This document shows, piece by piece, positions 30,713 to 52,046 of a stretch of DNA of 64,000 nucleotides; the stretch's first letter is position 1, and each line of letters opens with the position of its first letter. The translations under genes and the position numbers were made by a program. This DNA comes from Prorocentrum cordatum. Lineage: Eukaryota; Sar; Dinophyceae; Prorocentrales; Prorocentraceae. Under the pieces are notes generated by a model, which had not been told where the DNA came from, did not search any database, and worked only from the letters and a program-made list of their open reading frames with translations. The stretch is taken from contig CAUYUJ010001436.1 of the NCBI GenBank assembly GCA_963575745.1, forward strand, positions 551,795-615,794, written 5' to 3'.

Positions 30713-30714
30713 CC

Positions 30715-32905: not shown

Positions 32906-32908
32906 ATT

Positions 32909-35084: not shown

Positions 35085-35115
<31 letters not shown>

Positions 35116-35371
35116 CCTCTGTCTCTGCATCGCTCCCTCGCTCCATCCCTCTCCCACTCTCCCTCTCCCTCATAATCCCTCGCGCTCGCTCTCTCTCTCT
35201 CTCTCTCTCGCTCTCTCTAGTCTCGGCTCGAGAGTGCTCTGCACTCAGACCGCAGCCACGACGCGAAGCGCCCCGCCTCGGAGTCAGACTCCCAGGCCTC
35301 GCGAGACCGGAGGGGTCCCAGCAGGACCCTACTGATTCGCGTCACCTCTCCGCACCGGAGTGCCCGCAGCA
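34970..35371 (+). other. 5' leader of the giant LINE, with CT microsatellite
   Basis: CT-rich sequence from 34972 to 35219, then about 150 nt of unique leader to the ORF1 ATG at 35372. The true 5' end of the element was not identified; no LTR is present. Confidence 0.45.
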
Positions 35372-37945
35372 ATGGCCCCCAAGAAGCCGGAGCGCCGTCG
35401 CTCTTCAAAGCAGCCTCCGAGCTCCCGCCCCACGCGCCCTGCTGCTGAAGGGCCCCTCCTTCAACGCAAGCAGGACTGCATCGCAGCGTTCAGGCAAGCG
35501 GGGTCTGACCGCCCCACGGCCGCCTATAACGGGCTAGCCGAACTGAACGCGGACGAGCTCCAGGCAAAGTACGACATGCACAAGTCCAACACGAAGAAGC
35601 TTGGCAGCGCCCTTATCCGCATGTGCGCCGCCAACCAGATCAGCTACACGCTCGACCACTACCAGCGCAGCAAGCCTAAGCGCACTGGCGGTGACACATC
35701 GCACCCACCATCGGGCTCCGCACGTCTTCAGGCTGCGGACACCCAATTCATTGCCTTGGACCCTGCCTTTTGGAAGGTCCCTGTTCTTGCCGAACCCACC
35801 TCGCCTGACGACGGCAAGACGTACAAGCCCAGCATCAGCCTCCACGACTTCGAGAGTGGCGAACGGCTGCTGCAACACCACCTCGGGCAGGGCAAGCGAG
35901 CCACGGGCCAGCTCGCGATTGCTGTCATGGGCCCGAAAAACGACAACTACGTCGGTACCGAGCTCGCCGTCCCCGTCCTGAAGCGCCACCCCAAGGCGCC
36001 CAAAGTGGTCCACACGCACGTCCCCGTGATCGTGTACCAGCTGGGCACCAAGGAGGTCGCCTGCACGGAAAAGGTAGCCGTCGCCACCATCGACCCCGCC
36101 GACCACGTCTGCTGGATTCGGGCGACCATACACGAGACCGAGGCCATTGCCGCAGTCCCCTCCATGCACCAGGCCTTCGAGGACCAGTTCTCGGGAGGTG
36201 CCCCCGTGAACGGTGGTCCACGCGCCAAGGGCCCTTTTCGAGGCGACTCCGCTCCACAGGACAAGGCGCGCCAAAAGCACAAGGAGTCCAAGAAAGACGC
36301 TCGCCGCCAGGAGCTCGATGGCCAGCTCCAGGACACCTTCAAGGCCCTCTTCCACGGCAACTTTAAAGCCGTCACCATCCTCGAACCCTGCAAAAGCCTA
36401 GGCAGGTTTGGATCGGGCGTCGGAAAGAGGTCCCTGGCTGCCACCTTCGGCGTCAGTCTCCAAGCGGTCGACAAGGTCCTGGCGGGATCAGGGCAACTCG
36501 GTGCCACCTACGACTTCAGCAACGTAGGTGCAGACGAGCCCACCGCCGACAAGTATCAGACCGTGTGGTTCCCTGAGGACCAGCCCATCACGATGGCAGA
36601 CGCGTTCCAGAAGTCGGTGGCGCTCAAGGCCCTGGGAGTCGTCAGGCACGGCAAGTCAGGCCTGCTGGGGATCCGTGCTCCGCGGGGGTCTGACGTCGCC
36701 AAGGCCGCCGCTGTCAGCATCCGCGGCTGCGAGGCCACCCTCGCCAAGACGCGCTACCGCATTACTGGCATTGCGTCACGCCACGCCACGCTGACCCAGC
36801 TCGCCAAGACTCTCACGGGCCCGTCCGTCAAATGGGACTGTGAGGTCTACCACACCGCCTGGGACCCAGCCACTGCGGCCCAGTTTGCCCTAGTGCGCGC
36901 CCATCGGCCCCCACTCACCTATACGGTGCAGGTCGCGGGGTGCTCCATCCCGTGGAGCATCGCCGAGGCCCCGCTGGCTGAGGTGGCGCCGAAGCGGGAC
37001 AACGTTACCATCGTCACGCCTACCACCATCACAGAGCCTGCGACGCCGCCAGCCGGTGGTGGCGGCTTCAGCCCCGCCACCGGCACACTCCTCACCAAAG
37101 CGGCCCAGAGCCCCTACCTCCACGACCTCATGACTGCCACGCCCAAAGGCAAGGGCGTCGCACCGCTCCTGACCCCCAAGGAGGAGCCTTTAGCCAAGCG
37201 CCACCGCTCCTCCAGCGGGAAACGTGACGCCACGCCGCCCGCAAGGCCACCCCGCGCCCCAGGCCGCAGCTCTTCTGCGCCCCCTCACGGCACGGACGGA
37301 GCCGCTGAACCGACGGCCGCCCCAGGACCAGGTGGCCACGACCCCTGGCTTGGCACGGCCGCGGCGGAAGGAGGGGGCCACACCGAAGGCGCCGCTGCCA
37401 CAGCCGCCGAAGTACCAGGTGACGTCGTTGACGTCGAGATCCTCTCATCAGGCGATGAATACAGCGAGGCCTCCCACGAACTCAACACCTTCGGCGAGCG
37501 CTTCGCATCGGCCTCTAAACCGCCCGATGCTGCCACGACCCGCATCCAGCACATGGAACAGCAGCACGAGCTACTAGCCACCACGGTGGATAACATGCAG
37601 ATGCAGCTTGCGGGCGTTCTCTCCTCCCAGGCCACACTCACGGAGCACGTTTCAGGGCTGGAACGGGGGCTTGCCACCGTCGTCACCCAGCAACAGACGG
37701 CAACCGCCGACGCCGCTGCACTGCGCGGCGACATCCAGACCCTCCTCGGGCACCTCACGGGAGGCACCATCCACCTGCCACAAGCGGCCACTCTGGAAGT
37801 TAAGAAGGAGGAAGCCGCAGCGGCCGCCGAGCCCGCGGCAGCCTGCAGTGCGACCGACCAGCCAGGCCAGGCCACCCCAGGGACGGGGCCCCCAGGGGCC
37901 GACAAAGGCAAGGACAAGGGTCGGGCCACCCAGGACCCGCATTGA
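35372..37945 (+). CDS. LINE ORF1: RNA-binding/gag-like protein (857 aa)
   Basis: I choose ATG at 35372 (MAPKKPERRRSSKQPPSSRP); the open frame extends slightly upstream through a GTG. The basic N-terminus is followed by a folded region. Around residues 390-540 are beta-alpha-beta-like segments (KTRYRITGIASRHATLTQLA, WDCEVYHTAW) reminiscent of the RRM-like modules of LINE ORF1 proteins. A Pro/Ala-rich linker follows, and then a coiled coil near residues 725-800 (IQHMEQQHELLATTVDNMQM). No CCHC knuckle is seen. The expected role is RNP formation with the element RNA. The ORF is intact and ends in TGA immediately before a hairpin. It contains three of the TTCA-type hairpins (35717, 36505, 37052). 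The family-level function is inferred from position and composition. Confidence 0.8.
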   Translation: MAPKKPERRRSSKQPPSSRPTRPAAEGPLLQRKQDCIAAFRQAGSDRPTAAYNGLAELNADELQAKYDMHKSNTKKLGSALIRMCAANQISYTLDHYQRSKPKRTGGDTSHPPSGSARLQAADTQFIALDPAFWKVPVLAEPTSPDDGKTYKPSISLHDFESGERLLQHHLGQGKRATGQLAIAVMGPKNDNYVGTELAVPVLKRHPKAPKVVHTHVPVIVYQLGTKEVACTEKVAVATIDPADHVCWIRATIHETEAIAAVPSMHQAFEDQFSGGAPVNGGPRAKGPFRGDSAPQDKARQKHKESKKDARRQELDGQLQDTFKALFHGNFKAVTILEPCKSLGRFGSGVGKRSLAATFGVSLQAVDKVLAGSGQLGATYDFSNVGADEPTADKYQTVWFPEDQPITMADAFQKSVALKALGVVRHGKSGLLGIRAPRGSDVAKAAAVSIRGCEATLAKTRYRITGIASRHATLTQLAKTLTGPSVKWDCEVYHTAWDPATAAQFALVRAHRPPLTYTVQVAGCSIPWSIAEAPLAEVAPKRDNVTIVTPTTITEPATPPAGGGGFSPATGTLLTKAAQSPYLHDLMTATPKGKGVAPLLTPKEEPLAKRHRSSSGKRDATPPARPPRAPGRSSSAPPHGTDGAAEPTAAPGPGGHDPWLGTAAAEGGGHTEGAAATAAEVPGDVVDVEILSSGDEYSEASHELNTFGERFASASKPPDAATTRIQHMEQQHELLATTVDNMQMQLAGVLSSQATLTEHVSGLERGLATVVTQQQTATADAAALRGDIQTLLGHLTGGTIHLPQAATLEVKKEEAAAAAEPAAACSATDQPGQATPGTGPPGADKGKDKGRATQDPH
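35717..35739 (+). repeat. TTCA hairpin 1 (ORF1)
   Basis: Arms TCCGCA/TGCGGA, bulged C, inner stem GTC/GGC (one U-G pair), loop TTCA. Confidence 0.8.
36505..36530 (+). repeat. TTCA hairpin 2, variant (ORF1)
   Basis: Perfect 8-bp arms CACCTACG/CGTAGGTG around a loop that contains CTTCAG; the bulge/inner-stem layout differs from the others. Confidence 0.55.
37052..37084 (+). repeat. TTCA hairpin 3 (ORF1), longest arms
   Basis: Eleven-bp arms GCCGGTGGTGG / CCGCCACCGGC with one G-U pair, bulged C, inner stem GGC/GCC, loop TTCA. Confidence 0.85.
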
Positions 37946-37946
37946 A

Positions 37947-37999
37947 GGTGCCTCAGAGAGCCAGCCTCAGCCCTCCGAGGAAGCGCCTTCAGAGGCACC
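37947..37999 (+). promoter_or_regulatory. Hairpin directly after the ORF1 stop codon
   Basis: GGTGCCTC and GAGGCACC pair across 37 nt. The stem starts one base after the ORF1 TGA and precedes ORF2 by about 120 nt. It could influence termination/reinitiation or be a further relative of the ORF hairpins; the loop contains GCCTTCAG. Confidence 0.55.
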
Positions 38000-38116
38000 G
38001 CTCCCCTCTTCGCGTCGTATCTCTTTCTTGTTACCTCATGTCTGTTTTGGCAGCAGCACGCGCAAGCTCTCTGGTGTAGGGACACCCGTAGTCTTGCAGG
38101 GGGCGTGATTGTAGCG

Positions 38117-41100
38117 ATGTACATGAGCATTCAGGGGTGTATGAGGACGTGTGCTGCCACGCAGCTTTCGGCTCATCGCTCGCGCCGCCCGCCAGGCCTC
38201 GCCATCATGCGGCGCCTCGCCTGCGGCCTGGCCCTCCCCTCGCTGGCTGGAGCACACCCGTCTTCAGGCGGTGCGCCCCAGCACGGAGGAGAGGCTTTCC
38301 TGCGACATGCGGAGCGTAGGACGTTCTTCTACCTTTACGATGACAGCATCTACAAATACGATCACAGCGCCATTTTGGACCCGATCGTGAACAGCACCGC
38401 CGCCGCTGGTCCGTGCGGCACCGGGCTGCTGGGCGCCCCCGCGAGCGCCTGGCCTGAGCAGCACCAGGGGCCCTGCCCCACGCGCTGCCCCCCTGGGACT
38501 TCGACGGCTACTACTATGCCTACGCCGAGTACCAGCACGTCTCCTACGAGCACGCCCTCGTCAACTACGACACATGCATCGCAGTCGACCGCCGATTTTG
38601 CCGCAGCTGAGCTGACTCCTGCGTCCTCCGGCCACGCCTCGCACCGCATGCAAGTTCAGCTACGAGGGCTACCATCACTCAATACGACGCCTGCGGTCGA
38701 CCGTCGTACAGCATATCCTCGATGGCACCCTGTCTTCAGCTTGTCCACGACCGTCGTGCAGCATATCCTCGACAGGGCCGCTGGCAAGGCCCAGGCACGC
38801 AGTGGCGGCTTCAGCCCCGCTGCAGTGCCCTGGCTGCCACCGCCCCCGCATGAGGCAACGCACGCCGCGCACGACCACCTGCGAGAGTTACCACCGACCA
38901 CGACGCCTGCCGCCGTACGTCGCACCGTGTACCCTCCAGAGTGTCGCACCCCCACAGCGTGCCGACCTGACAGCTTCGACATTACTGACAGCGGTGGGTC
39001 GTGCCACGCTGGAAACCACGCCGATGAGCCAGCGCCGCAGACGGCTCCACCGTGGCCCCCACAGACCACAGGCGCCTCGCTGCGAGCCATCTGGCTCCTC
39101 GTGCCCTACCTGTGCATCACCGTGGAGCCCAACACGCTATGTGGGCTGCTAATTATGGCCGTGCTTAGCACCCACGCACACGGCCTGACTACCAGCAACA
39201 CAGAGAGTCCCGCTTCCCCTCTGTGCGCCAGGGGTGAACCTGATGAGGACCCCGCCTTCTGGCACCTGATGAACATCCGAGCACGGCTCATCCCGTGCGC
39301 CGCGGCGTGGGCACCAGGGGAGGACCATCAGGACGTTTACTGGGCATGGCTCGAGGACTGCGTCCCGCACGTCCTGGCGACGCTCCATCTGCCACAGTAC
39401 GACCACCTTTTCCAGGAGGACTCCGCGGAGAAAAACGACGCCCTGCGCCACCGCACCGCGGTCGACATGTGCGAGGATATCTGGCACAGAGCGGGCCCCG
39501 ACAGACAGCGCACCAACCGCAACCTCACTCGTATTCAGGGCAGCCACGAGTACCCCACCCGCTACCTTGGCCTCCTTCTGGAATACCAGGGCGCTCGTGC
39601 CCAGCTCGTCGGCCCTGAGGCTTTCGCGGCACCACTGCCGCCATACCTCTCACGGGCCCACGCCTTGCTGCCAAGAGGCCTCCCTCCGCCCGACCAAGAC
39701 GCCCTGGCGTATCTCGTGGATGCGATCCCGCACCACCCGCCAGACCTGCAGCCGCTTGTCGAGGCGGAGCTCGCCGCGGCACCGATGGAACCGCTAAACC
39801 TACCACCGCCCGCTGGCCCCCCCGCCCAAAACGCCGCGTGTGACCAGCCCGCGGCCGACGCTGAACCGCTTCTGCTCCAGCACGCAGCTGCCAGCGATAT
39901 CAGCAACATATCCCTGGACTCGTTCCACGTGTCGGACGATAGCCAGAACGACTCCATCCACGACACGGAAACCCAGGACCCCGACGGCACGCCACCGCCA
40001 AGTGACGCTGCCCAGCGCGACCGTGACAGCGATCCCCACACAGGGCGCTCCCGGTCGCGCAGCAGTGCGCCCAACAACTCGGCCCAGGCCGACCCCAGCG
40101 CACAGCTCAGCGACGCCGAAGGTGCCACCGCCGCCGACGAGCCAGGCCATGCCACCGCACCGCCAGCTCCCACCAGCCCGCGCAGTGGCGGCTTCAGCCC
40201 CGCTGCAGCACTGGCTGGACCTGGGCGTCTTCAGACCTCAGGTGGCAGGACCCCGTCCCGCACCCTTGTCCGCCGAGCTAACTCGACTGACTCCAACTCC
40301 AGCCCCGTCGACCACTGGCAGGCTGGCCTCGACAACGATCCCATCGAGGACGCGGACCCCGACGCCAGCGGCTCCCATGAGGCCCCGCACAGCGCAGCGG
40401 CCTCTCGACGCTGCGGCTGTCTCATCTGCCTCTTCGCGGTCACGTACGCCATCTTGGTAGCCATGCCGTACCAGGACCAGATCGACGGGTACCTGCCGAC
40501 ACCGAGCCGAGACCCCAGCTACCGGCAGCGACGACGCCGTGAAGCTGCGGCACCAGGCCCATCCGTGTCCACTACGCCCCGACGCACAATAGCATACGAC
40601 GCCGCGCCCGCCCTGTGGGGTCTTCTCAGGTGGACCAGCGCCAAACTCAGGGACACTGTCTCGGGCGGAGCCAGCGCAGTCGGGTCTGGCCTCTGGGGCG
40701 CCCTGAAATGGGCCAGCGGCAAACTCGGAGCTATCGCCACAGGCGGAGTGGTTTGCGGTCTCCTCCTGGTCGGCGCCAAACTTCTCGCTCAAGGAGCCGT
40801 CGGACACGTAGGAGCCCGCATCTGTGCGCGCGTCCTGGACTCACCCACGGCCCAGTGGTGCCTCCGCTGTTGCCAACCGATCAGGAGCCCGCGCGATGAG
40901 GCCCCACACACGCTTCCGCGCACGCATCCCGACGACCCCGAGAGCCAGCACGTGCATCCCCTTCGACACCCGCTGCTACAGGAACACTACGCCGCTGCAG
41001 TTGCCGCCGCAGTCGCCGATGTCACCACCGCCACCACCGCCGCCATCGTTGAAGTCACTGCCGCGGTATCGCGAGCCTCGTCTGTCACGCCACGGTCGAC

Positions 41101-43981
41101 CAGCCCGTCCCCGCGAGACGGCCCCACAAGCGGCGCGGCCTCTGGCAACCCGCCGACTCACGAAGCCGACGCAGCTCAGGCCACCGACGCCGAGGCAAGC
41201 GAAGCACGTGAGCGCACCCTCGACGGCGACGGCGTGCACGGAGCGCCCGACGACGAAGCGGATGCAAGCAACGCCCGTGGTTCCTCTTCCGACATGGACA
41301 CCCAACCACCACGACGGCGAGCACGCTACGCATCACCCGCCAGGCCCCAGGCGCCTTCAGGCCCTGGTACGCCCCACCCAGCCCTCTGGCCACCGACGCG
41401 CAACTTACGCAGCACCATCCAGCGCGACCCAGCGGTCCCCGTCCCGCCGACGAGCATCCTCACCTCCCTGTACCAGAACGGCTTTGCGCTTGGTAACAGT
41501 GGCGTGACCACGGAGGACATCGAAGACGCCCTGCGACTCCACGACCATCCTCGATTCACCCATGACCCAACGCTCCAAGCGCTGGTGCCGTGGACTGACA
41601 TCATGCAGAGGCCCCCGAACCGACTCACTTGGGTGCTGGAAGACTCGGGCGGGAACTCAGGCGAGACGATCTTCCCCTACCTCACGTGGGACCTCCGTGC
41701 TCCTACCACTGACACGCCCACGGTCTTCTGGCACGGGACCCGCGGCGACCTTGCGGCCCGTCTTGCTTTCAACGGAGGTCACCTCCTGCCGGGCCCCCGC
41801 CGTGAAGCGAAGGGCCGAACCGCCACAAATGTCGACCGCACGTACGTGGGTGTGCACCCGTCGCTGGCCGCGTGGTACGCGGTGCCGCCTCACCCGCCCC
41901 GCAGCCTCGAAGACGACACCCTCGCCTGGGGACCCATCGCGCTCTGGATGTGCGAGGCTACCAAACCGCCGCGCGGTGAGAACTGGCACAACTTCGTGAA
42001 CGGGGAGGCTCACGGAGCGCGCCTCATCTACCCACGGGTCCTGGGCCTCCTCATCCGCATGGACTGGTGTGCCCCCACCGAAGCTGCCTCCAGGTGCCGT
42101 GCCCTCCCGCACACCTGTGGCATGGGCGACTGCACGCACGCCCTCCACATTGCCGGCTTCGATCACCCAGACCTCCGCGAGGCGGCTGAAGCCCGCGACC
42201 AGGAGGCAAAGATCTGGCGCCGGCTGGACACCGCGGCAGCGTGGCCACCGCCACAGGCACTATACTCGCCAGAGGCAGCGCGAGCATGGGCTACACAGCA
42301 CTACGACACCGAAGCAGCCACCAGGGCCGACCCCAACCAGCCCCGTCCGCGTGCCTCGCTTCGCAAGCTCCAGCTGGACCCGCAGCCACTGATCGACCTG
42401 GTGTACACTGCCACGGCGCAGGCTGTACCCGAGCGGGGGCAGTCTGACGTACGAACGCCGCGCCCCAGCGGCTCCAGCCCTGGGGCCGCGTCTGGCCCAT
42501 CGCACACCTCTCAGCCAGGTGCCGCCTCGGGACACAGTCCAGACCGCTCACCGACGGCATCGGGAGCCGACGACCGCCGTACGCCGTCCCTTATCAGCGC
42601 GGCCGCCGCCCTCGCCCGAGGCCATGCTCGCTCACGGCGCTCCGCCTCACGTTCGTCACGGCAGAGCGGCGGCAACTCCGCCTCTGACAGCAGCGACATC
42701 GATACGTGGGAGCACATCGAGACGGAAGAGGAGCCGACCGCCTACCACGTCCTCGCCTTCCACGTCCGCGATGTGCGGTCCCGTGTGAACGCCCCTGGCG
42801 TCGAGGTCTGGCTCGACCCAGGCGAGCATCACGATGGCGCCTACCTACCGTGGGGGGCGACCGTTGTGGGCCACCGCGTTACTGACCCTGCGGTTGCGGG
42901 TCGCGATGGCTGGGTCATCCTTCACCACGACCACGGCGACACCACCACCAGGCTCTGGGCACCGACCCAAGTCCACGTCAAGGCGGACGACACTTGGCGC
43001 ACGGTCATGATCGCAGCGGACCTGGGGCCCCAGTGGATCCAGCGCCATGCTGACGACGCTCGCCTCCCCGCGGAGGCGGTCCGCACTACAGGCCAGTCCT
43101 GGTTCGCCGACGTCTGGCCTTTGTGGGATCGACCCCGACCCCACCCAGACGACGCAGTCACCGACGAGCAAGCGTTCCCGCCCCTACCAGGACGCTGGAT
43201 TTGCCTACAGTGCCGATTCCAATGCTGCCAGTATTGTGCTGCCCGCCGCAACACGCAGCTCGGCACCTCGGGCCAACCGACGTGCCCTGACTGCTCCCTC
43301 AGCGGACTGCGTGCACCTATGGACTGGTCCACGGACTACTCTTGCAACAGCTGGACGTGCGTGTACAGCACCGACGACAGGGCCGCCGACACATGCTGCC
43401 TCTCCAGCAGATGCCCACATCCGCCTCGTCCGCACAGCCTGTTCGACGTCCGTGCCACAGGGATGCCTCCGCACATCCTCGCCCGCCAATACGGCAACGC
43501 GCCAGCCCAGCACGACCTCATGGAGCCCCCCCGAGCGCCTTCAGGCCCCGGGGGGGAGCCTCCGCAACCAGGCCAAGCAGGATACCAGGGCCAATGGTAT
43601 CTACCACCGAGGCCGCGTCGCGTCCCCAAGCAGGGATTGCCCGACGGCACGAGGCGGCCACCAGGGTTCACAGGGACGGGGATGCCTGAAGACCCGTCTC
43701 CCGACCAACCGCTGTGGAAGGAAGGCTACGTGCTCTTCGGCCCGCACCAGGCCCTCAAGGAGGATTTCATCTTCAACAAAGCGGTGCGCCGACCTTACTC
43801 CCTAGCCATCACCAACATGTACAGGGATCGTGTCACAGTCAGGACCGTCTGCGAGTCTATCGCCGAGCGCATCCACACTACCCGCACGCGCTGGCGGGAT
43901 GTGGTACTGTACTGGGATGCCGAGGGCGGCCCTGGGCCTCAAGCTCTCGACTACGACATGCGCCTCTGTGACGCCATGTGA
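38117..43981 (+). CDS. LINE ORF2: giant protein with ADP-ribosyltransferase-like domain and Cys-rich segment (1954 aa)
   Basis: The first ATG is 38117; the frame opens a little earlier through GTG at 38105. Not a standard LINE protein. Visible parts, from ATG: a hydrophobic start (MRRLACGLALPSLAGA, ~31-46); hydrophobic segments near 324-352, 766-785 (CLICLFAVTYAILVAM) and 876-891; a helical domain near 380-560; an ADP-ribosyltransferase-like segment near 1195-1270 (VFWHGTR, GGHLLPG, YVGVHPSLAAWYA); and a zinc-binding-like Cys cluster near 1694-1770 (CLQCRFQCCQYC, CPDC). Long Ser/Pro/Ala linkers separate them and carry most of the seven TTCA hairpins. It ends in ATGTGA, overlapping ORF3 in the -1 frame. 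Membrane association and ADP-ribosylation are inference; the exact role is unknown to me. Confidence 0.7.
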   Translation: MYMSIQGCMRTCAATQLSAHRSRRPPGLAIMRRLACGLALPSLAGAHPSSGGAPQHGGEAFLRHAERRTFFYLYDDSIYKYDHSAILDPIVNSTAAAGPCGTGLLGAPASAWPEQHQGPCPTRCPPGTSTATTMPTPSTSTSPTSTPSSTTTHASQSTADFAAAELTPASSGHASHRMQVQLRGLPSLNTTPAVDRRTAYPRWHPVFSLSTTVVQHILDRAAGKAQARSGGFSPAAVPWLPPPPHEATHAAHDHLRELPPTTTPAAVRRTVYPPECRTPTACRPDSFDITDSGGSCHAGNHADEPAPQTAPPWPPQTTGASLRAIWLLVPYLCITVEPNTLCGLLIMAVLSTHAHGLTTSNTESPASPLCARGEPDEDPAFWHLMNIRARLIPCAAAWAPGEDHQDVYWAWLEDCVPHVLATLHLPQYDHLFQEDSAEKNDALRHRTAVDMCEDIWHRAGPDRQRTNRNLTRIQGSHEYPTRYLGLLLEYQGARAQLVGPEAFAAPLPPYLSRAHALLPRGLPPPDQDALAYLVDAIPHHPPDLQPLVEAELAAAPMEPLNLPPPAGPPAQNAACDQPAADAEPLLLQHAAASDISNISLDSFHVSDDSQNDSIHDTETQDPDGTPPPSDAAQRDRDSDPHTGRSRSRSSAPNNSAQADPSAQLSDAEGATAADEPGHATAPPAPTSPRSGGFSPAAALAGPGRLQTSGGRTPSRTLVRRANSTDSNSSPVDHWQAGLDNDPIEDADPDASGSHEAPHSAAASRRCGCLICLFAVTYAILVAMPYQDQIDGYLPTPSRDPSYRQRRRREAAAPGPSVSTTPRRTIAYDAAPALWGLLRWTSAKLRDTVSGGASAVGSGLWGALKWASGKLGAIATGGVVCGLLLVGAKLLAQGAVGHVGARICARVLDSPTAQWCLRCCQPIRSPRDEAPHTLPRTHPDDPESQHVHPLRHPLLQEHYAAAVAAAVADVTTATTAAIVEVTAAVSRASSVTPRSTSPSPRDGPTSGAASGNPPTHEADAAQATDAEASEARERTLDGDGVHGAPDDEADASNARGSSSDMDTQPPRRRARYASPARPQAPSGPGTPHPALWPPTRNLRSTIQRDPAVPVPPTSILTSLYQNGFALGNSGVTTEDIEDALRLHDHPRFTHDPTLQALVPWTDIMQRPPNRLTWVLEDSGGNSGETIFPYLTWDLRAPTTDTPTVFWHGTRGDLAARLAFNGGHLLPGPRREAKGRTATNVDRTYVGVHPSLAAWYAVPPHPPRSLEDDTLAWGPIALWMCEATKPPRGENWHNFVNGEAHGARLIYPRVLGLLIRMDWCAPTEAASRCRALPHTCGMGDCTHALHIAGFDHPDLREAAEARDQEAKIWRRLDTAAAWPPPQALYSPEAARAWATQHYDTEAATRADPNQPRPRASLRKLQLDPQPLIDLVYTATAQAVPERGQSDVRTPRPSGSSPGAASGPSHTSQPGAASGHSPDRSPTASGADDRRTPSLISAAAALARGHARSRRSASRSSRQSGGNSASDSSDIDTWEHIETEEEPTAYHVLAFHVRDVRSRVNAPGVEVWLDPGEHHDGAYLPWGATVVGHRVTDPAVAGRDGWVILHHDHGDTTTRLWAPTQVHVKADDTWRTVMIAADLGPQWIQRHADDARLPAEAVRTTGQSWFADVWPLWDRPRPHPDDAVTDEQAFPPLPGRWICLQCRFQCCQYCAARRNTQLGTSGQPTCPDCSLSGLRAPMDWSTDYSCNSWTCVYSTDDRAADTCCLSSRCPHPPRPHSLFDVRATGMPPHILARQYGNAPAQHDLMEPPRAPSGPGGEPPQPGQAGYQGQWYLPPRPRRVPKQGLPDGTRRPPGFTGTGMPEDPSPDQPLWKEGYVLFGPHQALKEDFIFNKAVRRPYSLAITNMYRDRVTVRTVCESIAERIHTTRTRWRDVVLYWDAEGGPGPQALDYDMRLCDAM
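38252..38276 (+). repeat. TTCA hairpin 4 (ORF2)
   Basis: Arms GCACACC/GGTGCGC with one mismatch, bulged C, inner GTC/GGC, loop TTCA. Confidence 0.7.
38799..38823 (+). repeat. TTCA hairpin 5 (ORF2)
   Basis: Arms GCAGTGG/CCGCTGC (one G-U), bulged C, inner GGC/GCC, loop TTCA. Identical to hairpin 6. Confidence 0.85.
40182..40206 (+). repeat. TTCA hairpin 6 (ORF2)
   Basis: Same 25 nt as hairpin 5, 1383 bp away, in the same reading frame (GGFSPAA). Confidence 0.85.
40219..40243 (+). repeat. TTCA hairpin 7 (ORF2)
   Basis: Arms ACCTGGG/CTCAGGT (one G-U), bulged C, inner GTC/GAC, loop TTCA. Only 12 nt after hairpin 6. Confidence 0.8.
41347..41367 (+). repeat. TTCA hairpin 8 (ORF2)
   Basis: Arms CCAGG/CCTGG, bulged C, inner GCC/GGC (swapped pairs), loop TTCA. 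Confidence 0.8.
42462..42486 (+). repeat. TTCA-type hairpin 9 (ORF2), loop TCCA
   Basis: Arms GCCCCAG/CTGGGGC perfect, bulged C, inner GGC/GCC, loop TCCA. Confidence 0.8.
43526..43556 (+). repeat. TTCA hairpin 10 (ORF2)
   Basis: Ten-bp arms of C/G with one mismatch, bulged C, inner GCC/GGC, loop TTCA. Confidence 0.75.
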
Positions 43982-46900
43982 GTCGTGCCACGACCGAAGC
44001 CGAGTTGAACCACGACCGCAGCAACCGTGGTAGCTTCTGTCTCTATGGACCAGCGCACCAGCGGGCTGTGAACATCACGGTGCTCCCCGAGCCGCAGAAC
44101 ATTGACTTCGTGGAGCATGTACGGCGCTACTCACCTGACGGGGAGACTTACCCAGACCACGCCTTCGAGCACGTCTACCAGGGCTGGCGGCGGCCCGACG
44201 TGCCGCCCATCCTCCCCGACACCCGCCCGCTCTCGAGAGCCGACCAACAGCGCTACCAGCAGCGCCAGCAGCGCACCCAGCAGCGCGACCAACGCGACGC
44301 AGGTCAGCCGAGCACGCCACGCAACCGCTCTCCCGCGCGCGTCCCGACAGGCGACAGAGCGGTGTACGGCGGAGGCGCCGCCTACCACCGTGGCCCCATT
44401 GGTGCCAGGCCCGCGGCGGCAGGGGCAGCCGCCTCCAGCTACGGCCACGTCCCCCACGCCAGGGTGCACCCAGCGGTCGTCGGCTACCCGCGCGCACTCG
44501 CGCAGGCTCCCCCACGGGCCACCTCGCCCGCGCCAGGGTCCACGCGTGCCTGGGGCCATTACCCAGGCCGCCACGACAGCACCGCCAGCAACCAGTCCGC
44601 AGCGGCACCCCCTGCGGCTTCAGCCCAGGGGGCTGCACCAAGCCGCGGCAGGACAGGGCGCCCCGAAGGATGGCGCGAGGCGAACGTGCGCGCCTGGCAA
44701 CCGCGCCAACACACGCCCCCGCCAAACGTGGCCGCAGCGCAGCGCCCTGCCCAGGCAAAGCCCGCCCCCCCTGAGCGCGAGCGGCAGCCGCTCGTCCCGC
44801 TCGTCCTCACGCACACCCAGGCACACCACAGCGCCTCCCCGCGGCACAGCGAGGGTAGTGCCCACCGCGTCAGCCCCCGGCCTGACGCCGCCGACCCTGA
44901 CCAGGCTGCAGCCTCGGCGGCGGGCGGCACAGGCGGCTCCCGCCCGCCCAGCCCAGCACCCAGCGCAGCGCCGATCCGCTCCCCGAGCAGGGCGGACTCT
45001 GCGCGCGCCAACGCCCAGGCGGCCTCGCCACGTGACCGCCACACGGGCGGGCGCGTCCCGCGCAGCCGGCCCAGCAGCCGCCACAGCTCGCGCAAGCCCC
45101 CTGGGAGTTCCACGAGCTCGCCGCCCCGCGAGACTCAGGCTGACGCCCAAGCCCCCGAGGTGGTGCCACGTTTCGGTGCCGGCGCCAAAGACCCTAACGA
45201 GGTCGACCTCGAGCCGACGCCGTCCACGGACCAGGAGCTGCCACCGCTCACCCGCGTCGTCGCCCCCGACGAGGCGCCGACCTTCGACCCCTACAAGCAC
45301 AAGTACTCCGTCAAGGACCTCGCGGCGGGCTTCGGCGGCGGCTCACCGCTGTCTCCTCAGAGCCACGGCGGCGCCCCCGCCACCTCTGCCGCTGCCGCGG
45401 CAGCGGCGGCCCCGCGTGGAGTCAGCCCTGTCCGCAACGCGAGCCTCGCGGCAGCGGGCATGGACGAGGCCCAGCGCCAGGCCACCGACCGCGCCGCTCG
45501 CCACGCCCAGCTAGTGGCTGACGCGCTGGCAGGGCGGGCGCCGCCGCAGCCACAGGGCCCACCGCCCGAGGCGAGCGCGGAGGGCGCACACGAACAAGCT
45601 GTTCCAGCTGATGCTGCTCATCACGGCACTGACGGGGCGGGCGCGCCGCCGCAGGACGGACCAGCGGTGTCGCGTGCGCAGTATTCGCGCGCGCGCTGCG
45701 CCGCTGCCGCGCCGCGCTGCCGCCGCTGGTTTGCTTTTGCTCTTGCGCTCGGCAGGATGGATCGAGGAGTCGCCTCCCTCTCCCCCTGCCGCCGTCTCAC
45801 CTCTCCTCCCTCCGCCCCCCACGGTACAGGAGTGAGGAGGTTTTTTCGAGGCATTTTTGCAGATGTTTATGAACCCCCCCCGGCGCAGCGTCGACCATGC
45901 CTTGCCTACACTTTTGGCCCGACGGCGGCTTCAGCCCCGTCCAAGCCAATCTGCTGCGACGCCATGAGCTCCCACTGTGGCCAGGCCTCCTACCTGGGTG
46001 ACGGCCAGGCCGCCCTCCACCGTGCGGGGCGTGCTAACCCCAGCTCCACCGACGGAGATGGGCCAGGTCGCTCCATCCATCTCGTCAGCCTCAACATCAC
46101 GAGTCTTCCAGCGAACTGGCCAACCATTACCGCCCTAGGTGTCGACCACAACGCCGCGGTCATAGCGCTGCAGGAGACCCGTCATGCCAAGACTACCAGG
46201 CAAGCCATCGCCACCAACGCCGCCAATCCACACCACGGAGGATACCAGGCCAGTCTGGGACCTGACCTGGACCTGGCGCGTGCCCAGCGCAAAGCTGCCC
46301 ACGGTGGCACGGACCACACGGTCGAGGGCAACACCGGCGCCTCGGGCGGGGTTGCCATCCTCTCTAAGGACGCCATCGTCGACTCCACCGTCGACGACAT
46401 TGCGACCTGTATCGCCACCCTCAAGGCCAAGAAACGATGGCACGAGGTCTTCCTCCCGCTCTGCACCCAGCACCGCCGCAGGCGGCGACGAAACAACCAC
46501 GGTCCCGCTGGGATCTACATTGCGAGCCTCTACGGGGTCGCTGGAGGGGACAGCACCGATATATTTCGGCTTGCTGATTGCGCCGCCGCGAGGGTCGGCT
46601 CAGCCCCGTATTTCATTTGTATGGACGCCAACACGAACATCGACGACAATCCACACCTGCTGCACATGATGCAGCACGGATGGTCCAACGTCGCTGAAGG
46701 CACACCAGACCACACCATGCACACATATGGCAATATCCCTGACTGGGACCGCGTCACCAAGTGCCCCCGCACTTCGCGCATCGACTATGTCATCGCCAAC
46801 CAAGCTGCGCGATCCCTTGTCACCGACTTCTGCTATCTGCGTGACTTGCCAGCGAAGTCCCATGTTGGCCTGCAGGTCACACTCGACCTAAGCCGCCTCG

Positions 46901-49900
46901 ATCACACGGCCCCACGCCTTTTGGCCCCCACGCCATACCCTCCAAACGACGGAGCTCATGAGGACCACGAACTCCAGGCACTAGGGACCCACATCGCCGG
47001 ACGATACCACGACCGCATGGAGCAGGCTGACGCACGCGACGATGTGGAACGCATGTTCGCCCTGGCAAACGAGGCCAGCCATGAGTACCATCTCACCCGG
47101 CTGCGGGACCTGCCGCCCCCACCGCCAGACCACCCAAAAAAGAAGGCCCCTACCATGCACGGGCTCACACCCACGTTCGAGGAGCGACCCGCCGTCCCCC
47201 GCGCCTTTCCCACCTACGGAGCTTCCACGATTCACATGAACCGCCTTCGCAAGCTCCATCGGCAACTTTGCGAGCTTCGCTTCATCGGACTGCACCATCA
47301 TATAGACTGCCGTGCTATCCCGCCGCACCTGGCGCAACGCATCGACTGCACGTGGGCCGCGGCCCGCCTTCTCTGCCACAAGCTGCGCCCCACGGCCCTC
47401 CTGGCTTTTCCTGACGCCTGGACCCCCGACGTGCCAGCGCCACGCGGAGAGCAGCTCGATCGTCTGATCCAAAATCTAGACTCGGAGCTGGCGCGACGTG
47501 CAAACCGAGCCAAAGCTGAACGCATCAAGATCTGGTCTGAGGGCGTCCGCGAGCCAAGCGGGCGAAAGGCGGCCATATACGCACGGGCTGCCGACTGCTC
47601 GCCCACGGCGTATCTCCGCACGCCTACCACTCCCGACGACGCACAGCTCCACTGCGACATCACCGCCTTCAGCCCTGACCAAGCTAGCACGGGCGACAGT
47701 GGCGCCGACACCGACGCCGGCGGCTTCAGCCCCGGCGACGGTAGCTCGCCCGACACGGACAACGACGACGGCCCCATACGTGGCCCACTACCAGCCCAGG
47801 TCCCCGACGCCCTCCCCGCCAACGCTATCGTTGCCAACACCAAAGACATGCTCAAGCTTATGGTCGACACCTGGGAGCCCATCCTGGGCACGTACCGCGC
47901 TCGCGCGGGCCATGACGCCGAAGCTATGCCGACGTGGGCGGACTTCTACGACGAATACCGCCAAGAGCTGCCTACGCCATCACCAGCAGCCCCCTTCCAC
48001 CTTACCGACGACCAACTCATCCACTTCATTCGCACCCGTTCACCGCGCCGCGCGGGGGGACTCGACGGCTGGACGACCAAGGAGGCAAAGGAGTTACCCG
48101 ACGACATCCTTCGCCTCTTCGCCAGCGTCTTACGTGCTATGCAACGCACTGGCACCATCCCCGAGCCCCTCCTGCACGTGCCAAACCCGTGCCTCCGAAA
48201 AGGCCGAGGGGAACTCCCGACGGACCAACGGCTTCTCTCGGTTCTTTCCGTGTGGATGTATGCGTGGGAGGCGCCGGCCTACCGTAGCCTCACGACCTGG
48301 CGGCAAGGATGGACCCATGCCACGAGCTTCGGCGCCGTTCCCAAAGCCACCATTGGGGATGTCAGCACTTCTCTCGCCCTGCGCATCGAACACGCCAGGA
48401 CTTTACTCCTCCCCTTAGCTGGAGCAGCCCTTGACCGACAGAAGTGCTTCGACTACCTCATCACGGACATCTGTCTAAACCTTGCGCTGCACGCGGGGTG
48501 CCCACAAGACATCGTTACTGTCCGCCGAAACTTCTACAGACACCACAAACGCTACATCCGCATGAACGGAGCGTACTCCAGGGACCTGGCCAGGACAAAC
48601 GGTCACCTCCAGGGCAGCTCGTGGTCCCTGGATGACATCAAGCTGCTCATGTGCGTGTGGACAAAGAGGCAGCACCGATACGTTCCTCGATCACTCAGCA
48701 CTACCTTCGTTGACGACAGCAACTCCACTACCCACACCGCTCCTGAGCTGCAGAAATCTCTCGACGAAACCGCCAAGTTTGACCGATTCTCCGGTCAACG
48801 CATTCACCCTGGTAAAGTGGCAGGGTGGGCGCTCACCGATGAGCTGCACGCCGCCGTCACCCAGCTCACACTGGCGGATCGCCCCCTCCGAGTGGTCGAT
48901 TCCTTCAAGCTCGTCGGGAGTTACATCAACGCCGAGGCAGCGCCGGCTCCAGCCGCGCTTAACCTCACGGCCACCGCAGACGCCCGTGTGCGGAGGGCGA
49001 CTATCCGCCTGCCGCGCATTGGCAAGCTCCCGTCGCCGATGCTAATAAAGGCGCGGCACGTCCGATCCCTGGCCGCCAGCGTCTGCACCACGGGCACCGA
49101 CATCCAAGCACCATCAGGCCCAGCCAAGACTGCCTACAACCACGCCCTCAAGGCGGCTATCCGCCCCAAGGGGAACAAGTGGGTCGAGTTCTGGACTCTC
49201 ATGGCCGTGTGCGTGCCGGGACACGCCCTTGAGATCGACGCCATCACGCAGCGTGAAGCATTCCTGTGCCTGCGGCGGCAGGTTAACCGCGACGCCACAC
49301 TCTGCGGGCTCGCCAGAGACCTCCATCACCACGTCCAGACCCTGTTTGGTGGAGGACCCGTCGGGCGACTCGTCCAGTCACTCCAGCAGCTCCGATGGAC
49401 CTGGCCCACATTTGGCATCATGTACGATGACTGGGGCTGCCCGATCAGCTGGCTGAATCTACCCCAAAACGCCTTCCTGCACATGCTGCGGGCCTCACAA
49501 CGCAGGGCATTTCTGCGGAAGATCAAGCCACGGCGACACGACCTTGGCTACCTCGCCTCGGTCAGACAGGGCCTTGACCTCTTCGCCAGCACGTGGCTCG
49601 CGCGAACCAAAGGAGCAGCCAAATGCACTGCCTGGCAGCTGGCGCTCCTCCTGAACTACCTGTCGGGCGGGGACCACACCCAACAGCGACGATCCCGATC
49701 CAACACGTCGGCAGACCCCAGCCCCATGTGCCGCTACTGCGACGAGGAAGAGGAAACTCAGGAGCACACTGTCCGCGACTGTAAGTGCTGGGCCCGAGAA
49801 AGAGTTCCTCTCACCACCCTCATCAGTGACGACCAGTGGGCCCGTCTTCCGCCGCACACAAGACACTGCGGGCTCTTCGACGAAGACCCAGCCCTCCTCG

Positions 49901-51630
49901 ACCTGCAGGCCGACCTCGCGAGGGACCCGCTGCCACAGCCCATCCCGCGGCCCCCCCCTGAGGGTGATCCTGCGGCTTCAGCCCAGGACACCTACACCAC
50001 CTACCTTGACAACGACACTGGATGGACATGGGTCTATGCTGCCACGGACGGTGCGTGCACCAACCAAGCCATCCCACTCCTAGCACGAGCGGGCTACGGC
50101 GTCTACTACGGCATCGACCACCGCATGAACTACAGTGCACGCGTTCACGGCCTAACGCAGAACGCCCAGGTTGCGGAGACCCTTGCCATCGTCCACCTTA
50201 CGGCGTGTGCCGAACGGCCCGTGCACGTCTTCGTGGACAACCAGGCGGTGGTCGATGGGTTCCAAAGCATCATCGACGGACATCCAGCGCCGCAGGGCAC
50301 GCACGCGGAGCTCTGGGCAATGATTCACCGATGTGTCATGGCCAAGCCCGACATGTTTCGCGTCGAAAAAGTCGCCAGCCACCTGGGAGACCTGGGCATC
50401 GACCTTGGGCTCATCGGGCCCATCGCGGAGGAGTTCAACCGTCAGGCCGACGCCCTTGCCACAGCGGCGGCACGCACGCACAACCTCCCCGACGACATCG
50501 TTGAAGCTGCCAAAACACGACATCGCCAAGCGACCGTGCTTCACGGGGTCGCTGTCGCCATCTACGAGCGCAGACACCGTACTCTGCCGCTCCCACACCG
50601 CAGGGCTGGGTTTACAGCGGCTGAACTCAGCAAAATGGAACCGAACCCCCTGCTGTCGGACCAGGCACCACCCGCGGCTGGACCAGACATCCCGCAGAAC
50701 CCGGACGAGCTCTGGGCCGAGGCCCAACGTGCGATGTACGACGAACAGGAGGACGACCCGTTCGGCTTCGGCGGGGGACTAGACTTCCTGGACGACGGGC
50801 CAGCCAGCTCCAACCTTGCCCCGTCGGGCATCCGCACGATGCCCACCTCGACTCCGCCACCGAGAGCGGCACCGCACCCACATGATGACGTCGCTCACCT
50901 CCAAGACGCCGACGAGGACTTTTATGATCCCCTCGGATTGGGTGGCAGCATAGACGACGTCCCGCCGACACCCCACGCTGCCGACGATGCCGCTTCATCG
51001 AGTCGCCACCCGGTCACGCGGCCGACCTCTGAGCCCTCGCACGGCATCATGATTGTTCCCCCCGTGCCACCAACCCCTCCCCCCCACCAGCGCCAACCCG
51101 TGGGGGCGGCTTCAGCCCCCCCGCAGGGCACTGAGCCAGTTAGGCCGTCGCGCCCCGTCCACGCTCCTACCGTTGCAGGCTGCGAGGCTGCGGCTCCTCC
51201 GTCCTCAAGGGGCGTGGCCCCAGCGGCTTCAGCCCTGGGACCGCGCGACACCCTCCAGACGCCTCGCCACGGCGACGGCCGCCAGCGCACGGACCGCCGC
51301 ACCGCGCTGGTCCACCACCTGGCCAGGCGCACCGATGACCTCGTCCCCGCCGCGAGGCCCGCGACCGCGGGCACAGAGCAGCCGCCCCGCACCGACCGCG
51401 AAGCCGAGCTGTCCCAGTCTACGGCCGCTCTCCAGCAGAGGTGCGCAGCTCTCGCCGCCGACCTTGCCGCTGCCCAAGCCCGTCAAGGCCCTTTGCTCCA
51501 GCGCCTCCACCGCGCCGGTCGTGCCTTCGCCGAGCTGCTTACACCCCCGTCCGATGGTGCTGCGCCGCCACTCACCCTCCATGCTATGCTGTCATCGCTC
51601 CGCGGCGCTCCGCCTGGAGCCCCGCGCTAA
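43978..51630 (+). CDS. LINE ORF3: APE endonuclease - reverse transcriptase - RNase H polyprotein (2550 aa)
   Basis: The frame opens after TGA 43969-43971 and has no ATG until 45460, so it probably depends on a -1 shift, stop-start reinitiation or the GTG at 43978. Order: disordered Pro/Ser/Ala-rich region (to ~690); APE-type endonuclease (~700-975: SLNITSL, LQETR, MDANTN, SRIDYVIAN, SHVGL); linker; reverse transcriptase (~1340-1740: LDGWT, motif A ALDRQKCFDYL, motif B NGHLQGSS, motif C TTFVDDSN, FKLVGSYIN); C-x2-C-x8-H-x4-C knuckle (~1919-1937); RNase H (~2017-2170: ATDGAC, AETLAI, VFVDNQAV, NRQADALA). A disordered tail ends in a short coiled coil. All catalytic residues are present, so the copy may be active by target-primed reverse transcription. 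Six TTCA hairpins lie in the linkers. Confidence 0.92.
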   Translation: MSRATTEAELNHDRSNRGSFCLYGPAHQRAVNITVLPEPQNIDFVEHVRRYSPDGETYPDHAFEHVYQGWRRPDVPPILPDTRPLSRADQQRYQQRQQRTQQRDQRDAGQPSTPRNRSPARVPTGDRAVYGGGAAYHRGPIGARPAAAGAAASSYGHVPHARVHPAVVGYPRALAQAPPRATSPAPGSTRAWGHYPGRHDSTASNQSAAAPPAASAQGAAPSRGRTGRPEGWREANVRAWQPRQHTPPPNVAAAQRPAQAKPAPPERERQPLVPLVLTHTQAHHSASPRHSEGSAHRVSPRPDAADPDQAAASAAGGTGGSRPPSPAPSAAPIRSPSRADSARANAQAASPRDRHTGGRVPRSRPSSRHSSRKPPGSSTSSPPRETQADAQAPEVVPRFGAGAKDPNEVDLEPTPSTDQELPPLTRVVAPDEAPTFDPYKHKYSVKDLAAGFGGGSPLSPQSHGGAPATSAAAAAAAAPRGVSPVRNASLAAAGMDEAQRQATDRAARHAQLVADALAGRAPPQPQGPPPEASAEGAHEQAVPADAAHHGTDGAGAPPQDGPAVSRAQYSRARCAAAAPRCRRWFAFALALGRMDRGVASLSPCRRLTSPPSAPHGTGVRRFFRGIFADVYEPPPAQRRPCLAYTFGPTAASAPSKPICCDAMSSHCGQASYLGDGQAALHRAGRANPSSTDGDGPGRSIHLVSLNITSLPANWPTITALGVDHNAAVIALQETRHAKTTRQAIATNAANPHHGGYQASLGPDLDLARAQRKAAHGGTDHTVEGNTGASGGVAILSKDAIVDSTVDDIATCIATLKAKKRWHEVFLPLCTQHRRRRRRNNHGPAGIYIASLYGVAGGDSTDIFRLADCAAARVGSAPYFICMDANTNIDDNPHLLHMMQHGWSNVAEGTPDHTMHTYGNIPDWDRVTKCPRTSRIDYVIANQAARSLVTDFCYLRDLPAKSHVGLQVTLDLSRLDHTAPRLLAPTPYPPNDGAHEDHELQALGTHIAGRYHDRMEQADARDDVERMFALANEASHEYHLTRLRDLPPPPPDHPKKKAPTMHGLTPTFEERPAVPRAFPTYGASTIHMNRLRKLHRQLCELRFIGLHHHIDCRAIPPHLAQRIDCTWAAARLLCHKLRPTALLAFPDAWTPDVPAPRGEQLDRLIQNLDSELARRANRAKAERIKIWSEGVREPSGRKAAIYARAADCSPTAYLRTPTTPDDAQLHCDITAFSPDQASTGDSGADTDAGGFSPGDGSSPDTDNDDGPIRGPLPAQVPDALPANAIVANTKDMLKLMVDTWEPILGTYRARAGHDAEAMPTWADFYDEYRQELPTPSPAAPFHLTDDQLIHFIRTRSPRRAGGLDGWTTKEAKELPDDILRLFASVLRAMQRTGTIPEPLLHVPNPCLRKGRGELPTDQRLLSVLSVWMYAWEAPAYRSLTTWRQGWTHATSFGAVPKATIGDVSTSLALRIEHARTLLLPLAGAALDRQKCFDYLITDICLNLALHAGCPQDIVTVRRNFYRHHKRYIRMNGAYSRDLARTNGHLQGSSWSLDDIKLLMCVWTKRQHRYVPRSLSTTFVDDSNSTTHTAPELQKSLDETAKFDRFSGQRIHPGKVAGWALTDELHAAVTQLTLADRPLRVVDSFKLVGSYINAEAAPAPAALNLTATADARVRRATIRLPRIGKLPSPMLIKARHVRSLAASVCTTGTDIQAPSGPAKTAYNHALKAAIRPKGNKWVEFWTLMAVCVPGHALEIDAITQREAFLCLRRQVNRDATLCGLARDLHHHVQTLFGGGPVGRLVQSLQQLRWTWPTFGIMYDDWGCPISWLNLPQNAFLHMLRASQRRAFLRKIKPRRHDLGYLASVRQGLDLFASTWLARTKGAAKCTAWQLALLLNYLSGGDHTQQRRSRSNTSADPSPMCRYCDEEEETQEHTVRDCKCWARERVPLTTLISDDQWARLPPHTRHCGLFDEDPALLDLQADLARDPLPQPIPRPPPEGDPAASAQDTYTTYLDNDTGWTWVYAATDGACTNQAIPLLARAGYGVYYGIDHRMNYSARVHGLTQNAQVAETLAIVHLTACAERPVHVFVDNQAVVDGFQSIIDGHPAPQGTHAELWAMIHRCVMAKPDMFRVEKVASHLGDLGIDLGLIGPIAEEFNRQADALATAAARTHNLPDDIVEAAKTRHRQATVLHGVAVAIYERRHRTLPLPHRRAGFTAAELSKMEPNPLLSDQAPPAAGPDIPQNPDELWAEAQRAMYDEQEDDPFGFGGGLDFLDDGPASSNLAPSGIRTMPTSTPPPRAAPHPHDDVAHLQDADEDFYDPLGLGGSIDDVPPTPHAADDAASSSRHPVTRPTSEPSHGIMIVPPVPPTPPPHQRQPVGAASAPPQGTEPVRPSRPVHAPTVAGCEAAAPPSSRGVAPAASALGPRDTLQTPRHGDGRQRTDRRTALVHHLARRTDDLVPAARPATAGTEQPPRTDREAELSQSTAALQQRCAALAADLAAAQARQGPLLQRLHRAGRAFAELLTPPSDGAAPPLTLHAMLSSLRGAPPGAPR
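44608..44632 (+). repeat. TTCA hairpin 11 (ORF3)
   Basis: Arms CCCCCTG/CAGGGGG perfect, bulged C, inner GGC/GCC, loop TTCA; frame gives PAASAQ instead of GGFSP. Confidence 0.85.
45921..45941 (+). repeat. TTCA hairpin 12 (ORF3)
   Basis: Arms GACGG/CCGTC, bulged C, inner GGC/GCC, loop TTCA; lies just before the endonuclease domain. Confidence 0.8.
46078..46905 (+). other. APE-type endonuclease domain in ORF3
   Basis: Asn of SLNITSL, Glu of LQETR, the YGVAGG strand, Asp/Asn of MDANTN, the RIDYVI strand and the His of KSHVGL match the family order. The usual SDH triad reads SHV. The domain nicks target DNA. Free of TTCA hairpins. Confidence 0.85.
47715..47737 (+). repeat. TTCA hairpin 13 (ORF3)
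   Basis: Arms CGCCGG/CCGGCG, bulged C, inner GGC/GCC, loop TTCA; in the endonuclease-RT linker. A degenerate GCCTTCAGCCC lies 50 bp upstream. Confidence 0.85.
47990..49200 (+). other. Reverse transcriptase domain in ORF3
   Basis: Motif A at about 48424-48460, motif B at 48598-48621 and motif C (FVDD) at 48706-48717. Free of TTCA hairpins. Confidence 0.9.
49968..49988 (+). repeat. TTCA hairpin 14 (ORF3)
   Basis: Arms TCCTG/CAGGA, bulged C, inner GGC/GCC, loop TTCA; between the zinc knuckle and RNase H. Confidence 0.85.
50025..50490 (+). other. RNase H domain in ORF3
   Basis: The D-E-D-D residues (TDGAC, AETLAI, VDNQAV, RQADALA) are all present, with the basic/His stretch VEKVASHLG before the last Asp. 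It degrades RNA in the RNA:DNA hybrid. Confidence 0.85.
51100..51124 (+). repeat. TTCA hairpin 15 (ORF3)
   Basis: Arms GTGGGGG/CCCCCGC (one U-G), bulged C, inner GGC/GCC, loop TTCA; in the C-terminal linker. Confidence 0.8.
51219..51239 (+). repeat. TTCA hairpin 16 (ORF3)
   Basis: Arms CCCAG/CTGGG, bulged C, inner GGC/GCC, loop TTCA. Confidence 0.85.

Positions 51631-51996: not shown

Positions 51997-52046
<50 letters not shown>

Follow-up and report, generated by a model that had tools for sequence, protein, structure and literature searches.

We describe a family of bulged hairpins in a 64,000-nucleotide (nt) stretch of the genome of the dinoflagellate Prorocentrum cordatum (contig CAUYUJ010001436.1, positions 551,795 to 615,794 of the forward strand; hereafter “the window”). 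Sixteen hairpins with an unpaired C on the 5′ side lie between positions 35717 and 51246, all on the sense (+) strand and mostly at about one per kilobase (kb), across the three long open reading frames (ORFs) of a ~17-kb element taken as a divergent non-LTR (long terminal repeat) retrotransposon, or LINE (long interspersed nuclear element). On balance, these hairpins are probably sites for protein recognition, dispersed as an array along the LINE sense RNA and similar in manner of working to the packaging signals of MS2.

All 16 hairpins have the form outer stem, C (5′ bulge), GNC, T[T/C]CA, GNC, outer stem. The bulged C, the first (G-C) and third (C-G) inner pairs and the loop T-Y-C-A are invariant, and the middle inner pair (G-C, C-G, U-G or U-A) and the outer pairs are variable. 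An unbiased scan was performed for perfect Watson-Crick hairpins with five or more base pairs (bp), a 1-nt 5′ bulge, 3 bp and a 4-nt loop, with any bulge or loop sequence allowed. On the + strand of 34400-52000, nine hairpins were found, all nine with a C bulge and a loop of TTCA (7) or TCCA (2); none was found on the - strand of this interval. Both strands of 1-34400 gave six hairpins, none of the C-bulge/TYCA type (52000-64000 lay outside the scan), and 100 dinucleotide shuffles gave none of this type. A relaxed scan of the whole window that allowed G.U pairs and mismatches recovered 16 C-bulged members, all of them + strand sites scoring at least 10; the sole other C-bulged match listed was on the - strand at 3335, with a 3-bp stem and a score of 6. 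A covariance model (R1) built from the 16 scored its members at 29.0-37.1 bits and the best other site on either strand of the 64 kb at 15.2 bits. Rfam gave no matches over the whole 64 kb at the gathering cut-off, and the three matches at E≤5 within 35300-51900 do not cover a hairpin.

In local folds of 120-600 nt, the mean probability of the hairpin pairs was 0.87 or more at most sites (site names as in Table 1). Exceptions were 42473 (0.26-0.95, depending on the size of the folding window), the outer pairs of 38263 and 43540 (0.53-0.71) and, in the 600-nt folding window, 40230 (0.26/0.23) and 45930 (0.53/0.52). Covariation among the 16 gave a score of 0.681 versus 0.149 for shuffled sequences, and 39 double-changed cells versus 11.6; note that the members had been selected for pairing, so structure is favoured in this comparison.

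The hairpins are read in all three frames. When synonymous codons were permuted with the protein and the codon usage kept (300 runs), the same rule found 0.04 hairpins on average and never more than 1, compared with 14 observed. Based on the use of three frames and on this permutation, a peptide-repeat explanation was rejected. An earlier reading of the letters alone (the sequence-only reading) had proposed a C-bulged family through all three ORFs, an observation that is confirmed and stronger than stated. It had counted at least two frames, where three are used, and was right that a peptide motif cannot explain the core. Its sixteenth, bulge-less member at 36505 is dropped: this segment sits in the peptide GATYD[FL]SNVGAD, kept in the ORF1 relatives P0006-P0009, and 16 C-bulged sites were found otherwise. 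The tests that it had named as possible refutations (shuffled sequence, covariation, a peptide repeat in one frame) were run, and none refuted the RNA hairpins.

The hairpins are spaced ~1.1 kb apart, with a coefficient of variation of 0.435 for the gaps, and 0.0005 of 20,000 uniform random placements were equally even. The even spacing persists with positions matched for predicted disorder (0.0002 of 5,000 draws). Eleven of the 15 gaps fall within 900-1400 nt, a bin that was picked post hoc.

Conservation was assessed in copies from elsewhere in the genome, which comprises 21,875 contigs totalling 4,128,499,153 bases. Genome-wide, the core CGGCTTCAGCC has 15,054 occurrences, compared with 7,418 for a reversed control, and among the first 100 places many form same-strand runs with the spacing of the element. 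Twenty stretches on seven contigs were picked by such runs among these 100 places, a choice in which copies without the core are not represented. They contain element copies at 80-97% identity, some of them head to tail. For the footprint comparison, alignments had to span the footprint and 20 bases on each side, with 38810 left without a row; for the copy alignments and the window-percentile analysis, blastn pieces shorter than 300 bases were dropped. Over 15 of 16 sites, with 8-10 loci each, the footprint was identical at 2730 of 2835 positions (96.3%), versus 34221 of 39645 (86.3%) in the flanks. For third codon positions the values were 913/941 (97.0%) and 10444/13139 (79.5%), respectively, or 811/822 and 9107/11462 without 40230 and 45930. 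These loci are mutually related, and the counts are not independent events. Picking the stretches by CGGCTTCAGCC favours sites that have this core, so a fairer comparison comes from the seven sites whose core differs. Footprint versus flank identities at these sites were 1.000 versus 0.905 (35727), 1.000 versus 0.888 (38263), 0.942 versus 0.874 (41356), 1.000 versus 0.833 (42473), 0.994 versus 0.888 (43540) and 0.989 versus 0.897 (48948); the seventh, 40230, is considered below.

Third positions are perfect at 10 of 15 sites versus ~8.4% of windows (binomial 3.5e-8, which is approximate given overlapping windows and related copies). Ranked among all 21-nt windows, 11 of 15 sites lie above the 95th percentile, whereas 45930, 47725 and 51228 fall close to the centre and 40230 only reaches the 8th percentile. 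At 47725 the third outer pair, C-G in the window, is U-A in eight loci, U.G in one (L026) and a broken C.A in another (L024). At 51228, a U.G pair and a TCCA loop are present in all nine loci. Across the fetched stretches the loop is TTCA in 86 cases and TCCA in 29, and the bulge is C in 111.

A piece of the reverse transcriptase (RT) region gave 8,577 first-look candidates genome-wide, and scoring of the best 123 gave 99-100% identity; in this genome the LINE family appears to be young and abundant. Head-to-tail copies occur in L013-L016 (C21:8000-44000) and L026-L028 (C102:1-30000), and equivalent hairpin cores on C102 repeat ~16.1 kb apart. In most aligned loci an 800-bp stretch (38420-39218) is swapped for a much shorter one, with the 38810 hairpin still present, and L025 has an intermediate form.

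ORF1 has seven protein relatives (P0006-P0012) at 41-94% identity. An indirect compatibility test, working from protein rather than codon sequence, was used for these, giving the protein stretches that could be encoded by such a hairpin. Block-shuffled proteins had a mean of 0-0.8 compatible sites each, and 158 of 642 single missense changes retain compatibility. P0006, P0007 and P0009 (91, 72 and 59% identity, respectively) are compatible at both ORF1 sites, compared with 0-0.4 per shuffled version, as is P0008 at the single ORF1 site that it covers. At site 2 of P0009 the footprint keeps 9/10 columns versus 4/15 upstream; site 1 is less striking (6/8 versus 6/15). Compatible stretches without a hairpin in the window number one each in ORF1 (residue 473), P0007, P0001 and P0004, and two in P0006. 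One protein relative is from Symbiodinium sp. KB8. In viral and bacterial contig collections, no relatives were found with the patterns used. P0008 is named as a protein of a Myxococcales metagenome-assembled genome (MAG), and its 94% identity to ORF1 suggests eukaryotic contamination of that MAG.

A second element, at C2:406.7-413.6 kb, has LINE-like ends. Its 3′ part is 88.7% identical to that of the LINE (434 nt), and at its 5′ start (CT)n and the short leader TAGTCTCGGCTCGAGAGT are common to both. A comparison with ORF1-3 and P0001-P0012 gave no match at E≤1e-5, and the element is apparently non-autonomous, lacking RT coding and having an unrelated interior. From the ends common to both, we infer that it may be mobilised by the LINE. 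It has six hairpins on the sense strand and none antisense. In two of them the bulge is A; three others combine a C bulge with TTCA, and the remaining one has TCCA and is located past the stop of the listed ORF. The junction read on C2 passes through (CT)n.

Because bulge and loop are constant while stems are free, we favour hairpins that are bound by a protein. The putative protein would read the bulged C, the inner G-C and C-G pairs and the UYCA loop, and of the outer stem pairing alone would be required. With ~1 site per 1.1 kb, an RNA-binding protein encoded by the element or the host could coat or compact the 17-kb RNA, and the bound array may mark this RNA as template for the element's own machinery; the outcome would be assembly of a ribonucleoprotein or choice of template. 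The second element, with its LINE-like ends and no RT coding, would carry the same signal. A bolder version, which we offer tentatively as possible rather than probable, is that the LINE uses a virus-like dispersed packaging code, with regular hairpins in all three frames of its coding sequence that load an RNA-binding protein along the 17-kb RNA, and that its non-autonomous partner shares this machinery because its unrelated interior acquired the same hairpins at similar spacing.

Several observations weigh against an array of recognition sites. Pfam and PDB searches of ORF1-3 gave weak matches only, and structure prediction for ORF1 was poor (mean pLDDT 42), so an RNA-binding domain is not shown. 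Neither P0010-P0012 (41-48% identity) nor P0005 (45%) has a compatible site anywhere, and such elements can therefore exist without hairpins. The second element is known from one copy. At 40230 the footprint is less conserved than its flank (0.780 versus 0.818), and the hairpin is missing in seven of eight loci. An outer pair of 45930 is broken in 8/9 loci, the pair described above for 47725 is broken in L024, and the middle inner pair of 48948 is broken in 2/9. Single loci have a changed loop at 37067, 40193, 43540 and 45930, L013 is without half of 41356, and the bulge in the fetched stretches is A in two cases and T in two. The element has 52 perfectly conserved runs, of which 46 are without a hairpin and six with one, and many of its other windows match the hairpins in conservation. 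The near-identical arms of 38810 and 40193 and the gaps in P0005, both taken up next, belong on the same side.

Between a mobile and an RNA-structural palindrome, which the sequence-only reading had left as a choice, the RNA half is supported by covariation, third codon positions, the C-G/U.G/U-A series, folding in context at most sites and the use of three frames. The mobile half, with palindromes inserting into ORFs like Rickettsia palindromic elements or GC clusters, is very unlikely. Rickettsia palindromic elements are palindromes within ORFs that are read in more than one frame, and the hairpins here are also inside ORFs in several frames. Insertion would fit the arms of 38810 and 40193 (alike at 18/20 positions; null P=0.0115), a 28-30-nt match between the second element and 51111 that is restricted to the hairpin, the gaps in P0005 at three hairpin sites, which lean toward insertion, and the location of 15 of 16 hairpins above the median predicted disorder. 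However, the outer arms, said earlier to differ completely, are apart from this pair mostly unrelated rather than homologous (three similar pairs among the 16 versus 1.96 expected, P=0.31). The hairpins have a single orientation in the window (16/16) and in the second element (6/6), are evenly spaced, occupy the same places in other copies and, in ORF1, are kept down to 59% protein identity; five of five core matches sampled outside the element (L001-L005) are not hairpins. Clean insertions, which had been expected among copies, were not seen at 40230, where no indel separates sequences that have the hairpin from those that lack it, and the hairpin there therefore came or went by substitution. 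Because copies conserve most footprints, one stem shows three pairing states and 40230 lacks an indel, the comparison argues for selection acting on the RNA and against a mobile palindrome.

If RNA is selected, what reads it could differ. Stems linked to translation, either by slowing the ribosome between domains or in expression of the overlapping ORFs, would agree with the same disorder values and with a spacing of ~370 codons, which may be comparable to a large domain. We consider this distinctly unlikely: any stable stem would suffice, yet the bulged C, the closing pairs and the loop hardly vary; one hairpin of the second element is past the stop of its listed ORF; and hairpin doublets 37, 114, 117 and 129 nt apart match no domain boundary. 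Binding by a host factor, and not by the element's protein, in RNA stability, export, trans-splicing or escape from silencing, is unlikely but a serious contender, as the second element has hairpins without an ORF1-3 match and the domain searches of ORF1-3 gave no RNA-binding domain. Against it, hairpins within the window are confined to the LINE, and the five core matches sampled elsewhere, as noted, do not form them. Strand-specific structure could also arise in sense DNA, and some copies are head to tail; a role in single-stranded cDNA or DNA, during target-primed reverse transcription or the formation of tandem arrays, is nevertheless highly improbable, with G.U pairs tolerated at several stems as in RNA.

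An MS2-type operator has a lower stem and a short upper stem around a bulge. The LINE hairpins share with the dispersed packaging signals of MS2, as described in PMC6281560, an xxYA loop (16/16 here), one unpaired 5′ base and many dispersed copies. The MS2 signals have an A in the 5′ bulge, whereas the bulge here is C in 16/16 (A in 2/6 of the second element); the upper stem here is 3 bp, the carrier is a retrotransposon, and a coat protein is not known here. The likeness is one of working, and no kinship is claimed. The iron-responsive element lies in untranslated regions (UTRs) and combines an upper helix of five bp with an AGU-containing loop of six bases, unlike the 3 bp and UYCA found here in 16/16 within coding sequence (PMC8466369). 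Stem-loops of LINE 3′ UTRs that are read by RT are likewise bulged, on LINE RNA and proposed to be recognised by an element protein; here, in contrast, 16 copies of a single motif extend across three ORFs (PMC5135761). Dinoflagellate LINEs with a DNA methyltransferase (DNMT) in ORF1 similarly have extra coding capacity, but the word “hairpin” has no occurrence in the main text of that report (PMC5890265). A literature search, largely outside subscription journals, gave no description of these hairpins, including in PMC11453091, in keeping with the earlier statement that none is known for dinoflagellate LINEs. Apparently new here are a ~1.1-kb spacing that is evener than chance and a non-autonomous-looking element with six sense hairpins.

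Cis preference, the way in which a LINE protein picks out and covers its own RNA, is still an open question, and the hairpins are a candidate signal that is short, repeated, visible by eye and amenable to a test with a single 25-base RNA bait. If true, retrotransposons would share the dispersed packaging logic of small RNA viruses, and the known hairpin-protein pairs would be joined by a code of bulge plus loop.

The element extends approximately from 35222 to 52010 on the + strand, with (CT)n flanking both sides. It is taken as a divergent LINE because ORF3 aligns with proteins labelled as RT and endonuclease and weakly with RNase H1 (E 0.13). P0001 (labelled PF00078 and PF03372) aligns at 45982-46893 and 47812-49884 (E 4e-12 and 4e-16), placing endonuclease and RT together in one ORF, as in LINEs. 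Copies of the element end at a common 3′ end, also a LINE trait, and self-blastn (low-complexity filtered) found no repeat longer than 60 nt pairing both ends, i.e., no long terminal repeats. A Pfam search of ORF3 itself gave nothing above cut-off; for ORF2, Pfam gave one weak YbeY match below cut-off, and a PDB search gave no match. Residues 399-471 of ORF1 have a predicted strand-helix order that could be an RRM, which is not claimed because prediction confidence is too low. The ORF3 hairpins had been placed in linkers outside endonuclease, RT and RNase H; for RT this is inexact, as 48948 sits ~75 residues past FVDD, which we take to be a reverse-transcriptase motif, and P0005 has a 6-residue gap there.

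Table 1. Hairpins and reading frames of the element. Hairpin rows are based on the hairpin scans of the window and the covariance model; conservation is given for loci aligned by DNA.
Feature	Positions	Strand	Location	Description	Other loci
Hairpin 1 (site 35727)	35717-35739	+	ORF1	TCCGCA-C-GTC-TTCA-GGC-TGCGGA	21-nt footprint identical 9/9
Hairpin 2 (site 37067)	37052-37084	+	ORF1, GGFSP frame	11-bp outer stem, C bulge, GGC-TTCA-GCC	identical 8/9; L025 loop changed
Hairpin 3 (site 38263)	38246-38282	+	ORF2	GTC-TTCA-GGC, outer stem interrupted	footprint identical 10/10
Hairpin 4 (site 38810)	38799-38823	+	ORF2	GCAGTGG-C-GGC-TTCA-GCC-CCGCTGC	present in 10; no row in footprint comparison
Hairpin 5 (site 40193)	40182-40206	+	ORF2	near-identical to hairpin 4	identical 8/9; L013 loop changed
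Hairpin 6 (site 40230)	40219-40243	+	ORF2	GTC-TTCA-GAC	present in 1/8 (L024)
Hairpin 7 (site 41356)	41347-41367	+	ORF2	CCAGG-C-GCC-TTCA-GGC-CCTGG	identical 7/9; L024 TCCA loop; L013 without 5′ half
Hairpin 8 (site 42473)	42462-42486	+	ORF2	GCCCCAG-C-GGC-TCCA-GCC-CTGGGGC	footprint identical 9/9
Hairpin 9 (site 43540)	43526-43556	+	ORF2	GCC-TTCA-GGC, one outer mismatch	identical 7/8; L015 loop changed
Hairpin 10	44608-44632	+	ORF3	CCCCCTG-C-GGC-TTCA-GCC-CAGGGGG	identical 9/9
Hairpin 11 (site 45930)	45921-45941	+	ORF3	GACGG-C-GGC-TTCA-GCC-CCGTC	outer pair broken 8/9
Hairpin 12 (site 47725)	47710-47742	+	ORF3	third outer pair C-G	U-A in 8; U.G in L026; broken in L024
Hairpin 13 (site 48948)	48939-48959	+	ORF3, RT region	AGCGC-C-GGC-TCCA-GCC-GCGCT	identical 7/9; inner pair broken in 2
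Hairpin 14	49968-49988	+	ORF3	TCCTG-C-GGC-TTCA-GCC-CAGGA	identical 9/9
Hairpin 15 (site 51111)	51097-51127	+	ORF3	GGGGG-C-GGC-TTCA-GCC-CCCCC	identical 9/9; flanks 78%
Hairpin 16 (site 51228)	51212-51246	+	ORF3	CCCAG-C-GGC-TTCA-GCC-CTGGG	TCCA loop and U.G pair 9/9
ORF1	35372-37945	+		open frame from 35360; 2 hairpins; relatives P0006-P0012	
ORF2	38105-43981	+		open frame; 7 hairpins	
ORF3	43978-51630	+		endonuclease, RT and RNase H regions; 7 hairpins	

Within 43970-43984, the open frames of ORF2 and ORF3 share four bases, an overlap that suggests coupled translation. Immediately 3′ of the ORF1 stop (37940-38000) is a long inverted repeat, GGTGCCTC...GAGGCACC, containing CGCCTTCAG. Within ORF2 (41720-41900), HGTRGD... 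resembles by eye ADP-ribosyl or RNA 2′-phosphotransferase folds; Pfam gave no match there. Large repeats are located 5′ of the element at 31131-32906 and 29968-30714.

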